Part shown: positions 27,027-34,937 of the stretch, in pieces
How positions within the stretch are numbered: position 1 is the stretch's first letter
Layout of the letters: each line of letters starts with the position of its first letter
Assembly: GCA_947259285.1 (NCBI GenBank)
Contig: CAMYMR010000024.1
Span: 2,935-57,626 of the forward strand
Origin: an uncultured Woeseiaceae bacterium
GTDB taxonomy: Bacteria > Pseudomonadota > Gammaproteobacteria > Steroidobacterales > Woeseiaceae
Length of the DNA stretch: 54,692 bases
Direction: 5' to 3'
Position numbers and translations under genes: made by a program
The notes under the pieces: model-generated
Database searches by the model: none
Seen by the model: only the letters and a program-made list of their open reading frames with translations
What the model was told of the DNA's origin: nothing

Positions 27027-27242
27027 AGGTGTTCTTCTTATATTGTTTTGGTGGGAAACACATCCGGCCGACACAGTCGCTCGGAGTCTCTCGACACGAG
27101 GCGGCCAAATCGCTCGCTTGCTATTCGACAAGTATAGGTCAAGCCGCATACTTCGTCTTTGCGCCACGGATACGGCTGGCGCGCCCGAGACCAGCATAGC
27201 CGCTCGATTTCCAGGAGGACCGCAGGTTTTTGCGCGTTTTTC

Positions 27243-27271
27243 TTGTTTTTTGCGGTATTGGCAAGTAATTT
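27243..27271 (+). promoter_or_regulatory. Predicted sigma70 promoter for the ileS T-box leader
   Basis: TTGTTT (27243-27248), 17 bases, then TAATTT (27266-27271). The expected start of transcription, ~27278, falls just before the first base of T-box Stem I (27281), which supports the call. Confidence 0.55.
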
Positions 27272-27277
27272 CCTCCG

Positions 27278-27567
27278 CAAGACGCTGAAGGGGACAAAAA
27301 GGCAGCCCGCTTGAGCCACAGCGACCGGAGGATGGTGAGAGCTCCGGGTTCGAGTCTGCCCAATATCACCCTGGAGTCGCCACCCGAAAAGCGATGCTGA
27401 GTAAGCGTGGCCGAATGGCTCGCGAGAAGAGCGACGGACGTTTCGCCGGATCGGCGATAGTCCAGGAGGCGGCCCTATGGAATTGAAAGGCCGCGAAACC
27501 GGGTGGTACCGCGACGACGATCGATCGCCCCGGGCGCAAGTAATGCGTCCGGGGCATTTTTGGTTTT
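27278..27567 (+). ncRNA. T-box riboswitch, isoleucine-specific, transcription-attenuating leader of ileS
   Basis: All main parts can be drawn. Stem I, 27281-27378: base GAC/GTC, K-turn-like TGA/GGA, AGGG/CCCT (27289-27292 with 27369-27372), specifier loop with ATC at 27365-27367 followed by A, GGCAG/CTGCC (27301-27305 with 27356-27360), CTTGAG/TTCGAG, then CCGGAG/CTCCGG (27325-27330 with 27342-27347) closing a loop with GGTGAGAG; the AGCGACC just 5' matches the distal T-loop element. Stem II-like hairpins occupy 27391-27463. Stem III is GCGGCC/GGCCGC (27469-27474 with 27489-27494). The core GGGTGGTACCGCG (27501-27513) fits the T-box consensus at every base. TGGT (27504-27507) can pair with the ACCA end of tRNA-Ile. 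Antiterminator: CCGGG and GCGA with TCGC and CCCGG, 27499-27533. Uncharged tRNA-Ile should let transcription pass into ileS. Confidence 0.95.
27527..27567 (+). terminator. Regulated terminator of the T-box
   Basis: GCCCCGGGCGC (27527-27537), 7-base loop, GCGTCCGGGGC (27545-27555), then ATTTTTGG: an 11-bp stem with U-tract. Its 5' arm shares CCCGG (27529-27533) with the antiterminator, so the two folds exclude each other. The U-tract ends at the ileS ribosome site GAGG (27568-27571). Confidence 0.92.
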
Positions 27568-27579
27568 GAGGATGAACAA

Positions 27580-30500
27580 TTGACAAAGAAAGCCACATTC
27601 AAAGAGGTTAGCGGCCGCTACAACGGACCGGGACTCGAAAAAGAAGTGCTGGCGTTCTGGCGTGAGCACGACGTCTTCGCGAAGACATTGGCGGCAACCA
27701 AAGATGGCCCGCAATTCAGCTTCAATGAGGGCCCGCCCACGGCGAACGGCAAGCCTGGTATTCACCACGTATTGGCGCGGAGCTTCAAAGATATCTTTCC
27801 GCGCTACAAAACCATGCGGGGCTACCACGTGCCTCGGAAAGCAGGCTGGGATACTCACGGCCTCCCGGTAGAACATGAAGTTGAAAAAGAACTCGGTATT
27901 TTCGACAAACAGGAAATCGAGGAAAAAGTGGGCATCGCGGAGTTCACGAAGCGCTGTCGCGAATCGGTCATGCGCTATATCGGCGACTGGGAGAAGATGA
28001 CCGAGCGTATGGGCTTTTGGGTCAACCTGGATGAAGCCTACTACACGCTCGACAACAGCTATATCGAGTCCGTATGGAACCTGCTGCAGAAGATCTGGGA
28101 CAAGGATCTGATTTACCGAGGGTACAAGGTGGTGCCCTACGACCCGCGTATCGGTGCCACCCTGTCATCACACGAACTGGCACTGGGCTACAGGGAAGTT
28201 GAGGACCCGTCGATCACGGTGCGTTTTAAAGTCGAAGGCCAGGACAACACCTATTTTCTTGTCTGGACGACAACGCCGTGGACATTGCCGTCAAATCTTG
28301 CGCTCGCGGTTGGTGTGGACATTGACTACAGCTACTGTGACTCCGACGGGCAAACGCTTATCGTTGCGGAGGCGCTGCGCGCAGCCGTATTCCGTGATAT
28401 CGAACACTCGGTCGTAAAGACCGTGAAAGGTTCTGCGCTAGTCGGCATGCGCTATGAGCAGCTTTTCAGCTATCTGAAGGTCGATGCGCCAAACGCTTTT
28501 ACGGTAATGGCGGCCGACTTTGTCAGCACCGAAGATGGCACAGGCATTGTGCATACTGCGCCCGCCTATGGCGTTGACGATCTTCTGCTCGGACAGGCGA
28601 ACGACCTTCCCGTCGTACATGGCGTAGGGCTCGACGGCCATTTCGTCGATGAGGTCGAACCTGTTGCTGGCCTCTTTTTCAAGGACGCCGACAAACCGCT
28701 GATTCGCATTCTTAAAGAGCGCGGTGTCATGTTTCGCTCGGAGCGCTACAAGCACAATTACCCGTTCGGATGGCGCACGGGTGATCCGATTCTTTATTAC
28801 GCAAAAAATGCCTGGTACATCCGAACGTCGAAGTTTCGGGATCGCATGGCCGAGCTCAATCAGACCATCAACTGGGTACCCGAGCATATCCGGGACGGTC
28901 GATTCGGCAAATGGCTTGAGAATAATATTGATTGGGCACTATCGCGTGAGCGATTCTGGGGCACGCCACTGCCCGTCTGGTCGGATGGCGAGGGCGACTA
29001 TCTTTGCATCGGCTCGGTCGCCGAGCTCGAGGGACTGACCGGGCGCGATCTTTCGGGTCTGGACCTGCATCGGCCCGCCGTCGATGAAATCTCGTTCGAG
29101 AAAGACGGCAAGACCTGGCAACGCGTGCCCGAGGTCATCGACTGCTGGTTCGACTCTGGTGCTATGTCTTACGCGCAGTGGCATTACCCGTTCGAAAACC
29201 AGGACAAGTTCGAGAAGCACTTTCCAGCCGACTACATATGCGAAGCGATCGACCAAACCCGCGGCTGGTTTTATACACTGCATGCGATTGCCACGCTGGT
29301 ATCCGACGACGTAGCGTTCAGGAACTGTATTTGCCTGAACCTGATTGTCGACAAAGACGGCAAAAAAATGTCCAAGTCGATCGGCAATATTATCGATCCG
29401 TACGACGTATTTGATAGCGTCGGCGCCGATGCGCTGCGCTGGTATTTCCTGGCGCGCCTGTCACCGGACGTTCCGAAGCGCATCTCCGTTGAGATCGTTG
29501 CCGATGTTGCCAGCTCTTTCATCAACACCTTCTGGAACACCTATGGCTTTTTCGTGCTCTATGCAAGGCTCGACGAAGTTGACCTCAGCCGTGACATTGC
29601 GCTTGCCCAACGGCCCGAAATCGACCGTTGGGCACTCGCGTTATTGCATAAGACAATCACGACGGTTACCGATGCGCTGGACAACTTTGACGCCAAGACC
29701 GCCGGCGAAGCGATAGAAACGTTCGTCGACCAGCTGAGTAACTGGTACGTGCGTCGCAATCGACGCCGCTTCTGGAAATCCACCGATCCGGAGGATACCC
29801 AGGCAGCCTACCTGACACTGTACGAATGCCTGAAGGGTGTACACGAGCTGATGGCACCATTCGTGCCGTTCCTCGCGGAGCATGTCTATCAGAACCTGGT
29901 CCGTACCGTTGACAGCAATGCGCCGGTATCGGTGCACATGGGCAATTGGCCCGAAGCCGATGCATCCTGGCAAAACGATGAGCTGTTGTTCGACGTTGGC
30001 GTCGTGCAAAAAGTCGTGGGTTTAGCGCGTGCCGCGCGCGGCCAGTCCGGTGTGCGGACGCGGCAGCCGCTGTCGCGACTGCTGGTTCGCGCGCCGAACG
30101 ATGCGTCGCTGAAAGCGCTCGATGATCATCAGGATCAGATTCTCGAGGAACTCAACGTGAAATCAATCGAGTTCATCGCGCGGGACGCGGGGCTTGTCAG
30201 CTACCGAATCAAGCCCAACCTTCCGCGCATCGGCAAGCGTTATGGAAAACTCGTCCCGCTCATTCGCAAGGCGCTCGAAGAGGCAGATGGCGCCGCTATC
30301 GCCGCCGCCACCGCTCGGGGTGAGTCCTTTGATATCCAGGCGGGTGGTGAGGCGATCACCCTCGAAGGCGAGGATGTGCTCATCGAAACCAGCTCGGCAG
30401 AGGGCTACGCCTGTGGCGAAGACGCCGGATTCCTGACGGCAATTGACACCACGTTGACCGACGAGCTGATCGGCGAAGGTATCGCCCGGGAAATCGTCCG

Positions 30501-30723
30501 GTCTATCCAGGATGCCCGTAAACAAGCGGGTCTTGAGGTTTCGGATCGCATAACGCTGGGTGTTTCCGGCTCTGAAGCCGTCGAAAACGCCCTCCTGGCG
30601 CACAAGGAATATGTAATGAACGAGACTCTGGCGACCGCATGGGAGGTGGCGCAGTCAAAACCGCTCTATTCGGGCGACAGGGATCTCGGCGACGAGCATT
30701 GGACGATCGAATTTCGCAAATAA
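27580..30723 (+). CDS. ileS: Isoleucyl-tRNA synthetase, type 2 (eukaryote-like) with GIHH signature motif
   Basis: 1047 residues from TTG at 27580, eight bases after GAGG. It charges tRNA-Ile. The order is that of class Ia IleRS: Rossmann domain, CP1 editing domain (WTTTPWTLPSNLALAVG, GTGIVHTAPAYG), KMSKS loop (596-600 in GKKMSKSIGN), and helical anticodon-binding domain with a long C-terminal part. Sequence such as GWDTHGLPVEHEVEK and KMTERMGFWVN belongs to the type 2 branch, longer and more eukaryote-like than the ~940-residue IleRS1 of most Gammaproteobacteria. The HIGH motif is replaced by GIHH (60-63, after GPPTANGKP), with first and third residues exchanged, as reported for mupirocin hyper-resistant IleRS2. 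It stands alone, not in the ribF-ileS-lspA operon usual in this class. Confidence 0.96.
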   Translation: MTKKATFKEVSGRYNGPGLEKEVLAFWREHDVFAKTLAATKDGPQFSFNEGPPTANGKPGIHHVLARSFKDIFPRYKTMRGYHVPRKAGWDTHGLPVEHEVEKELGIFDKQEIEEKVGIAEFTKRCRESVMRYIGDWEKMTERMGFWVNLDEAYYTLDNSYIESVWNLLQKIWDKDLIYRGYKVVPYDPRIGATLSSHELALGYREVEDPSITVRFKVEGQDNTYFLVWTTTPWTLPSNLALAVGVDIDYSYCDSDGQTLIVAEALRAAVFRDIEHSVVKTVKGSALVGMRYEQLFSYLKVDAPNAFTVMAADFVSTEDGTGIVHTAPAYGVDDLLLGQANDLPVVHGVGLDGHFVDEVEPVAGLFFKDADKPLIRILKERGVMFRSERYKHNYPFGWRTGDPILYYAKNAWYIRTSKFRDRMAELNQTINWVPEHIRDGRFGKWLENNIDWALSRERFWGTPLPVWSDGEGDYLCIGSVAELEGLTGRDLSGLDLHRPAVDEISFEKDGKTWQRVPEVIDCWFDSGAMSYAQWHYPFENQDKFEKHFPADYICEAIDQTRGWFYTLHAIATLVSDDVAFRNCICLNLIVDKDGKKMSKSIGNIIDPYDVFDSVGADALRWYFLARLSPDVPKRISVEIVADVASSFINTFWNTYGFFVLYARLDEVDLSRDIALAQRPEIDRWALALLHKTITTVTDALDNFDAKTAGEAIETFVDQLSNWYVRRNRRRFWKSTDPEDTQAAYLTLYECLKGVHELMAPFVPFLAEHVYQNLVRTVDSNAPVSVHMGNWPEADASWQNDELLFDVGVVQKVVGLARAARGQSGVRTRQPLSRLLVRAPNDASLKALDDHQDQILEELNVKSIEFIARDAGLVSYRIKPNLPRIGKRYGKLVPLIRKALEEADGAAIAAATARGESFDIQAGGEAITLEGEDVLIETSSAEGYACGEDAGFLTAIDTTLTDELIGEGIAREIVRSIQDARKQAGLEVSDRITLGVSGSEAVENALLAHKEYVMNETLATAWEVAQSKPLYSGDRDLGDEHWTIEFRK

Positions 30724-33211: not shown

Positions 33212-33278
33212 GGATCCATAGGCACTTATGTCCGGTCGTCTGTGCGATACTTCCGGCGGGTCAAATCCGGGGGGAACC

Positions 33279-34937
33279 GTGAATCTTCGAATCCTTTTAC
33301 GCGAGACGGGTGTTCTACTAGCGTGTCTTTTTGCCGCATCATGCAGTACGGAGGCGCCACCTGAGACGACAACCGAGCAGCTCGTTACGGTCGAGCCCAG
33401 ACCCGAGATCTATGCAGACTTTACGCTAAGCGCTGACCTCAGCGGACTTAGCAACAGCCAGCGACAAATGATCAGGATTCTGATTGAAGCCTCTCAAATA
33501 ATGGACGATTTGTTCTGGCGGCAGAGTTACGGTGACGACTACAAAGCGTGGTTGAACTCGATCGGCAATGCCAAAGCGCGTCGATTTGCCGAACTCAACT
33601 ACGGTCCGTGGGATCGACTCGACGACGAAAAACCGTTTGTCAGCGGGATGGGCGCCAAGCCGCTGGGCGCGCGATTCTATCCGGAGGACATGAGTAAGCC
33701 GGAGTTCGAGGAAGCCTATCTGCCGGGCAAGAAAGGACATTATTCGCTCGTACGCCGCAACACGAAGGGAGAGCTTGTGCTCGTTCCGTATCACGTCGCT
33801 TATCGCGAGGAGCTTGGCAGAGTCGCGGGCCTGCTAAGGCAAGCGGCAAAACTGGCTGAAAGCTCGGATTTCGCAACCTACCTGAAGCTGCGTGCTGCGG
33901 CCCTTATCAGCGATGAATTTCAGATCAGCGATCGTTTCTGGCTGGATGTCAACGACAATCAGATCGACCTCGTGATCGGTCCCATTGAGACCTACGAAGA
34001 TCGCCTTTTCGGCTTTCGTACCGCCTATGAATCCATTGTGCTGATAAAGGATCTCGATTGGAGTGACCGCCTCAGCCGTTTCGCCGCTTTTCTGCCCGAC
34101 CTGCAAAAAGGGTTGCCCGTAGCCGATGAGTACAAGTGGGAAATGCCCGGGACCGACTCGGACCTCGGTGCGTACGACGTCGTCTATTATGCCGGTTACA
34201 GTAATGCCGGGTCGAAGTCTATCGCGATCAATCTGCCGAACGACGAAGAGGTGCAGCTCGACAAAGGCACGCGTCGGCTGCAGTTGAAGAATGCAATGCG
34301 GGCCAAGTTCGAGAAAATACTCGAGCCGATCGCGGCTGAGTTGATCGACGAATCGCAGCGCAAACACATTACGTTCGACGCTTTTTTCGCAAACGCGATG
34401 TTTCACGAGGTTGCGCATGGCCTTGGCGTCAAGAACACCATCGACGGTCAGAGCACGGTTCGTGAGGCGATGCTGGACCTCGCCACGACAATGGAAGAGG
34501 GCAAGGCCGATATCCTGGGCCTTTACATGATCACGGAGCTGCACAAAGCCGGCGAACTGGGCGACGTCGACCTTCGCGATTACTACACTACGTTCATGGC
34601 CGGCATTTTTCGATCCATTCGTTTCGGCGCAAGTAGCGCACACGGCAAAGCAAATATGGTGCGATTCAATTACTTCATGGACGAGGGCGCTTTTGTGCGT
34701 GATGACGCGACCGGAACGTACCGGGTCGATTTCGAAAAGATGGAAGCCGCGATGGCCGCCATGTCGCGGCTGCTGCTGACGCTGCAGGGTGACGGCGATT
34801 ACGATGGTGCTGCCAAACTTATAAATAGCAAAGGCATAATCACGGCCAAGCTGCAGGCAGATCTCGATCGGCTGACCAATGCCCGAATTCCCGTCGACAT
34901 CACTTTTCAGCAGGGAGTCGCCGAACTGGGCCTTTGA
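33279..34937 (+). CDS. M49-like (dipeptidyl-peptidase III-like) metallopeptidase lipoprotein
   Basis: 552 residues from GTG at 33279, with a GGGGGG ribosome site. A lipoprotein signal with lipobox LFAASC precedes a short linker. The zinc site is HEVAHG (H376-E377 and H380) plus the second-helix EEGKAD (E406-E407), matching M49 helix motifs (HExxxH / EExxAE) except that the first is a five-residue HExxH. M49 enzymes remove dipeptides; a pentapeptide motif has been described in a few bacterial members. The upstream part (LFWRQSYGDDYKAWL, NYGPWDRLDDEKPF) is typical of bacterial M49-like proteins. It would act at the envelope on short peptides. Confidence 0.85.
   Translation: MNLRILLRETGVLLACLFAASCSTEAPPETTTEQLVTVEPRPEIYADFTLSADLSGLSNSQRQMIRILIEASQIMDDLFWRQSYGDDYKAWLNSIGNAKARRFAELNYGPWDRLDDEKPFVSGMGAKPLGARFYPEDMSKPEFEEAYLPGKKGHYSLVRRNTKGELVLVPYHVAYREELGRVAGLLRQAAKLAESSDFATYLKLRAAALISDEFQISDRFWLDVNDNQIDLVIGPIETYEDRLFGFRTAYESIVLIKDLDWSDRLSRFAAFLPDLQKGLPVADEYKWEMPGTDSDLGAYDVVYYAGYSNAGSKSIAINLPNDEEVQLDKGTRRLQLKNAMRAKFEKILEPIAAELIDESQRKHITFDAFFANAMFHEVAHGLGVKNTIDGQSTVREAMLDLATTMEEGKADILGLYMITELHKAGELGDVDLRDYYTTFMAGIFRSIRFGASSAHGKANMVRFNYFMDEGAFVRDDATGTYRVDFEKMEAAMAAMSRLLLTLQGDGDYDGAAKLINSKGIITAKLQADLDRLTNARIPVDITFQQGVAELGL

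Follow-up and report, generated by a model that had tools for sequence, protein, structure and literature searches.

In the established T-box mechanism, an uncharged tRNA held at the specifier and at the UGGU sequence of a leader RNA favours the antiterminator, whereas a charged tRNA leads to termination. Gammaproteobacteria are the textbook case of leader-peptide attenuation in the control of amino-acid genes, with T-boxes as the textbook Gram-positive alternative. The same contrast is stated in the accessible part of PMC3766115, which limits T-boxes to Firmicutes, Actinobacteria, Chloroflexi, Thermus/Deinococcus and Geobacter. The accessible part of PMC2494555 counts two T-box-bearing genomes, those of Geobacter and Pelobacter, among 125 from Proteobacteria, in both cases with the T-box upstream of leuA, and places T-boxes of isoleucyl-tRNA ligase genes in Deinococcus, Dehalococcoides and Actinobacteria. 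As far as these portions of the two surveys go, they agree with the rarity of proteobacterial T-boxes on which the original prediction for the present locus had remarked; among the titles and abstract openings listed by our searches of open PMC papers, none reports a gammaproteobacterial T-box. The Geobacter and Pelobacter leaders resemble the one described here in that their hosts were then filed as Proteobacteria (PMC2494555, accessible part), but they differ from it in bacterial class, gene and amino acid. The T-boxes of Bacillota ileS, exemplified by Staphylococcus aureus ileS in a reference title of the same survey, share its gene, specificity and mechanism class. The RNA that we describe is canonical; its host range is new.

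The DNA analysed (the window, 54,692 nucleotides) comes from an uncultured member of the Woeseiaceae. These are marine sediment bacteria that NCBI places in the Gammaproteobacteria, so the host is of the class originally named. The original prediction, made from the letters of the sequence, was of a complete isoleucine T-box at 27278–27567, between a minus-strand DUF2165 frame (listed 5′ end 27197) and the ileS start at 27580. A permissive cmscan of 27200–27620 aligned the Rfam class I T-box model RF00230 over model positions 1–219 to 27276–27535 (69.7 bits, E 3.1e-15), a significant full-length match, although one below the Rfam gathering score. The predicted limits fit this alignment together with the terminator positions, and the alignment and the sequence allowed every hallmark claimed (Stem I and its motifs, specifier, Stem III, core, antiterminator and terminator) to be placed. 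The features of the locus are as follows.

27243–27248, plus strand: −35-like hexamer TTGTTT, a pattern conserved in the leaders of the order
27266–27271, plus strand: −10-like hexamer TAATTT after a spacer of 17 nt, likewise conserved in the leaders of the order
27282–27377, plus strand: Stem I, including the AG bulge and distal loop (RF00230 alignment; covariation)
27320–27326, plus strand: AG bulge, AGCGACC (sequence)
27334–27341, plus strand: distal loop, GGTGAGAG (sequence)
27365–27367, plus strand: specifier codon ATC (Ile), followed by A27368 (sequence)
27380–27410, plus strand: Stem II with a GAA/AGUA internal motif (RF00230 alignment; two of seven pairs non-standard)
27412–27422, plus strand: short helix 3′ of Stem II, in the Stem IIA/B region of the Rfam model (RF00230 alignment; weak)
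27469–27494, plus strand: Stem III hairpin, GCGGCC/GGCCGC (RF00230 alignment)
27496–27513, plus strand: T-box core, AAACCGGGTGGTACCGCG, with the UGGU bulge at 27504–27507 (sequence and RF00230 alignment)
27500–27532, plus strand: antiterminator, pairing 27500–27503 with 27529–27532 and 27511–27514 with 27525–27528 (RF00230 alignment)
27527–27567, plus strand: intrinsic terminator of 12 bp (27527–27555) with the T-rich tail ATTTTTGGTTTT (hairpin in sequence)
27580–30723, plus strand: ileS, type 2 isoleucyl-tRNA synthetase of 1047 aa with a TTG start and a GIHH signature (TIGR00392, PF00133, PF08264, PF19302)

Stem I, the specifier loop, Stem II, Stem III, the UGGU core and the antiterminator all align to RF00230; the leader departs from that family in being GC-rich, in scoring 69.7 bits against a cut-off of 93 and in its gammaproteobacterial host. 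Because the score lies below the gathering score, a default Rfam scan misses the leader, and a scan of the window at default cut-offs reported nothing. The gathering score is a curated cut-off rather than a biological feature: homologous leaders from the same genus (G011, G004 and G015) exceed it, and 16 of the 90 T-box-positive genomes of the order reach it. At its curated cut-off, the standard model thus hides GC-rich T-boxes, and the gammaproteobacterial T-box was probably overlooked in part through such a score. In the host genome searched (3.2 Mb in 166 contigs, 84.8% complete), the leader is the sole RF00230 match (E 5.6e-15 in the whole-genome scan). Rfam matches to ncS037, H19_2, sX11, NsiR1, Scr1601 and ClpQY_promoter at 27437–27565 were weak, all lay over the terminator hairpin and were rejected.

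The ileS product scores 939.1 bits against TIGR00392 (cut-off 621.4) and is the only isoleucyl-tRNA synthetase (IleRS) of the host genome above that cut-off. PF19302, which we take to be a mark of type 2 IleRS, matches residues 851–1046, and GIHH replaces the HXGH signature; by its sequence, the synthetase is of type 2 (IleRS2). In the accessible part of PMC10485003, the GXHH form is found in IleRS2 and absent from all IleRS1 of the set studied, and it is tied to strong mupirocin resistance; here it serves as an evolutionary marker only. The predicted agreement between specifier and gene holds, the codon at 27365–27367 being ATC and the gene ileS by TIGR00392. A frame of four codons (ATG AAC AAT TGA, 27573–27584) overlaps the TTG start at 27580. 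In a crude scan of 63 loci, the first ileS start codon was TTG in 38, ATG in 15 and GTG in 10.

To judge from the genomes searched, the leader is no peculiarity of one assembly. Close relatives carry it, with the T-box core again upstream of ileS: a 60-genome sample held a T-box in the window's genome, in 31 of the 36 other genomes of the genus and in none of the 23 from the order's other families. Across 396 genomes of the order, 90 were positive, comprising 89 of the 107 sampled Woeseiaceae (a total taken from a row count in a kinship-ordered listing), with all 12 sampled genera represented, and 1 of the 289 from the other families (G138). That single T-box outside the family (L166) precedes the gene of an IleRS2 that shares 70% identity with the window's, and is possibly a lateral transfer within the order. 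In a second order, that of G070, the genome to which record L041 belongs, 43 of 109 genomes had one T-box each, and ileS lay downstream in all 20 loci fetched (16 different places); its named records are labelled Arenicellales (L041), Gammaproteobacteria (L035) and Proteobacteria (L036). Another 40 genomes were reached through relatives of the synthetase, and 31 of them had T-boxes; among the 15 reached through loci labelled gammaproteobacterial or Proteobacteria, 11 had one T-box each and 4 had none (L038, L039, L040 and L061). The T-box is a family-wide trait that is present in a second gammaproteobacterial group too. A class-wide sample (2 of 369 positive, both in the window's genus) and a phylum-wide sample (2 of 398, the window's genome and G1096) missed known T-boxes of the G070 order, so they under-sample and give no true class-wide frequency. 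The G1096 match (26.1 bits, E 2.9e-4) was taken for a chance hit over 398 genomes. Scans of more than 40 genomes used stricter filters, at which weak matches are lost, and their counts are lower bounds.

Conservation of the leader was examined in 72 sequences, 58 from the window's order (L001–L030, L111–L134, L165–L167 and L169) and 14 from the second order. Left out were L163 (Stem I only), L159 (a remnant), L219 (no match to the specifier pattern), L237 (contains N) and repeats of the same places (L164, L170 and L230–L233); L219 and L237 both have an ATC specifier and both match RF00230. Stem I was aligned in 69 rows with MAFFT, without fitting to the structure and excluding L218, L221 and L236, which have a longer Stem I. 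When the Rfam structure was laid over this alignment, 92.6% of cells were paired, both sides had changed in 19 of 21 pairs and 207 cells were doubly changed. None of 500 shuffles equalled these values on any measure, slid controls reached at most 53.7% paired cells, and RNAalifold drew 19 pairs in a nearly identical fold from the same alignment. The specifier is ATC in all 72 leaders, a count biased towards ATC by the pattern used to find leaders, which allowed three mismatches. Loose patterns of the AG bulge and the distal loop occur in all 72, and a simple pattern of the Stem II motif in 44; the Stem III count (at least 5 bp in 72 of 72) is too permissive for use.

Within the genus, the switch has also been lost. 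Two genomes (G008 and G013, loci L162 and L161) keep the synthetase with the T-box gone, and retention of ileS in such relatives indicates that some lineages can do without the switch. Two further misses are of another kind: in G035 the contig stops 32 bases short of the synthetase match, and in G017 even the best IleRS match is not a strong one (E 1.4e-30). In G031 (L159), an apparent remnant was recognized by eye, consisting of the leader start and a core with terminator (GGGTGGTATCGCG) and lacking most of the stretch from Stem I to Stem III; it had no Rfam match at E 0.1. Such decay, together with the Stem I that stands alone in G027 and the bare loci of G008 and G013, would accord with the leader of the window being a relic too, its sequence kept by recent descent, its switching lost and ileS expressed constitutively or controlled otherwise. 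Against that stand helix pairs maintained through the doubly changed cells of the 69 rows, a T-box in every sampled genus of the family, and a specifier, antiterminator and terminator (the last in 66 of 72 leaders) that are kept in leaders from 8 of the 12 genera and from the second order. As pairing, specifier and hairpins persist across genera, we rejected a relic as very improbable.

The G027 leader (L163, about 838–998) has an intact-looking Stem I with an AUC specifier, and the remainder is replaced by a mobile-looking palindrome; a long hairpin followed by TTTTTT uses the 3′ strand of Stem I as its 5′ arm. This leader is either dead or a rewired switch. Inside the terminator hairpins of L163 and five other leaders sits a palindromic repeat with a core like TAAGGTGACAGTGACCTTA, or one resembling it; the leaders are L004, L008, L025, L030, L129 and L163. 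Such insertions seem to have happened several separate times. With up to one mismatch, the core occurs at 41 places in G002 and 44 in G027, at 2, 2 and 1 in G015, G018 and G341, and at none in the window's genome or in G033. Because natural losses and one rewired leader occur side by side in one genus, comparison of its members could show what the switch costs and what it brings.

A promoter-like pattern lies directly 5′ of Stem I. TTGnnn and TAnnnT separated by 16–18 bases were found within 14 nt of Stem I in 55 of the 58 leaders from the window's order, in every case with a spacer of 17 bases and an end 6 or 7 nt upstream of Stem I. The pattern recurs in 10 of the 14 leaders of the second order, and in control windows further upstream it was found in 3 of 490. 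Conservation of the pattern at this place predicts that transcription starts at the T-box itself, and in the window the RNA probably begins near 27278, about 7 nt past the −10-like element at 27266–27271.

At the other end of the leader, positions 27527–27532 belong both to the 3′ arm of the antiterminator and to the 5′ arm of the terminator, so that either hairpin can form but never both at once. In computed folding, the full stretch with the terminator reached −33.2 kcal/mol, against −22.0 kcal/mol with the antiterminator imposed; when the 3′ arm of the terminator was left out, the antiterminator was the best fold (−14.8 kcal/mol). Permissive scans found antiterminator pairing possible in all 72 leaders, and, in 66, a terminator hairpin of 8 bp or more whose tail has four or more T in nine. 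The terminator scan takes the best hairpin of each leader; L002, L017, L021, L166, L214 and L234 fell below its threshold, and an unusual hairpin was picked in L012, L125 and L212.

T-boxes of ileS in Actinobacteria are of the translational kind, in which the tRNA acts not on termination but on whether ribosomes can reach their binding site, and the shared gene might suggest the same here. The accessible part of the TBDB description (PMC7778990) treats this class II of Actinobacteria separately. In the window, however, the 12-bp hairpin lies 24 nt before the ileS start and overlaps the antiterminator, its T-rich tail ends before the ribosome-binding region, and Stem I is full length. In place of the sequestrator of the ribosome-binding site that is the hallmark of class II, the leader has a terminator with a T-rich tail, as judged from hairpin features. 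We regard translational control as extremely improbable.

The covariance-model match, the covariation, the conservation and the mutually exclusive hairpins support the class I transcriptional isoleucine T-box originally proposed upstream of ileS. We are highly confident in reading the leader as a class I T-box, with control of ileS by transcription attenuation and a probable joint acquisition of switch and type 2 synthetase. The known T-box family then allows the following predictions of how the promoter is used, how the tRNA is bound and its charging sensed, and how transcription ends. RNA polymerase would start just 5′ of Stem I, the AUC specifier in Stem I would read the GAU anticodon of tRNA-Ile, and the distal loops would pack onto the tRNA elbow. 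If the tRNA-Ile is uncharged, its 3′ ACCA end would pair with UGGU in the antiterminator bulge, and the antiterminator would keep the 5′ arm of the terminator, allowing polymerase to read into ileS. If the tRNA is charged with isoleucine, its end would be blocked and the more stable terminator would form, stopping transcription before ileS.

The discriminator base of tRNA-Ile is A73, and pairing of UGGU with such an end is putative here. No Ile-GAU tRNA gene was found among the 24 tRNA matches in the window's genome or among the 42 in a one-contig relative (G139), and a strict scan of the collected loci gave no candidate for tRNA-Ile. A pattern for the anticodon arm occurred at nine places in 5 of 12 genomes, and none of the four places inspected resembled a tRNA gene. 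Genes for tRNA-Ile usually lie within rRNA operons, and these operons, hence tRNA-Ile, are probably absent from the sequences searched.

The origin of the gene was approached with a tree of 88 type 2-like synthetases (FastTree only, midpoint rooting). The 21 gammaproteobacterial rows, two of them identical, form one clade (support 100) nested in a Chloroflexota-rich clade (support 99); two other sequences, L061 from Oceanococcus and L238 from the window's order, the latter on a long branch, fall outside the gammaproteobacterial clade and have no T-box core upstream. The GXHH form occurs in all 21 gammaproteobacterial rows and in Chloroflexota rows. For all their likeness in gene and specificity, the Bacillota systems differ at this point: the gammaproteobacterial synthetases lie outside the Bacillota clade, and no Bacillota row has GXHH. 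A likeness is also seen to the ileS T-boxes of Chloroflexota, and of Anaerolineae among them, where the core stands upstream of a related type 2 ileS that encodes a GXHH synthetase, although the 12 Anaerolineae genomes searched hold four to eight T-boxes each and the window's genome holds one. A T-box core (up to two mismatches, within 220 nt) precedes ileS in 16 of 21 Chloroflexota loci. Nesting of the gammaproteobacterial clade in a group with so many T-box cores makes a joint arrival of gene and switch probable. Mapped over the 88-row tree, the T-box label needs 17 changes, so gains and losses have been frequent. In most of the order's other families (family f8 excepted), the IleRS match begins at profile position 1–2 and open frames are mostly of 890–1000 aa, which suggests that those synthetases are of type 1.

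That the T-box contig reached a metagenome bin from Firmicutes or Chloroflexota, as a genome assembly in 166 contigs and Anaerolineae as the gene's nearest relatives outside the gammaproteobacterial clade might hint, has next to no probability and is refuted as far as present data reach: 89 of the 107 sampled family genomes are positive, one of them a single contig of 4,059,891 bases (G139), the window's synthetase is 62–85% identical to copies in the gammaproteobacterial clade against 48–51% to Anaerolineae, some relatives share the dksA/traR-like, dsbA-like, murI and M49 neighbours, and GC content is fairly even across the window (0.55–0.63).

The synthetase tree and the leaders make it probable that a Chloroflexota-like donor supplied gene and switch together to an ancestor of these Gammaproteobacteria, in whose descendants they were kept with occasional loss. 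Within the limits of midpoint rooting and one fast method, the simplest reading is a single acquisition, after which the pair was inherited or exchanged in these Gammaproteobacteria, with losses in L038, L039, G008 and G013. On balance, we lean towards a fuller account, in which the isoleucine T-box and the GXHH IleRS2 would have arrived from that donor as one unit, replaced the native type 1 enzyme and become the single T-box of the family and of much of the second order. The unit would still be evolving in G027, where the 3′ half has given way to the mobile-looking palindrome, the terminator is drawn from the 3′ strand of Stem I and the leader could sense tRNA binding alone. A T-box spread across a gammaproteobacterial family shows that such a mechanism can enter a lineage along with its gene and be retained there.

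Two further genes deserve mention. Directly past murI, at 33228–34937, the window has a weak match to peptidase family M49 (PF03571, 51.1 bits), with homologues in L033 and L034. In the Arenicellales-labelled L041 (4049–4995), the T-box is separated from ileS by a glutathione S-transferase-like gene, an arrangement that looks as if both genes were under isoleucine control.
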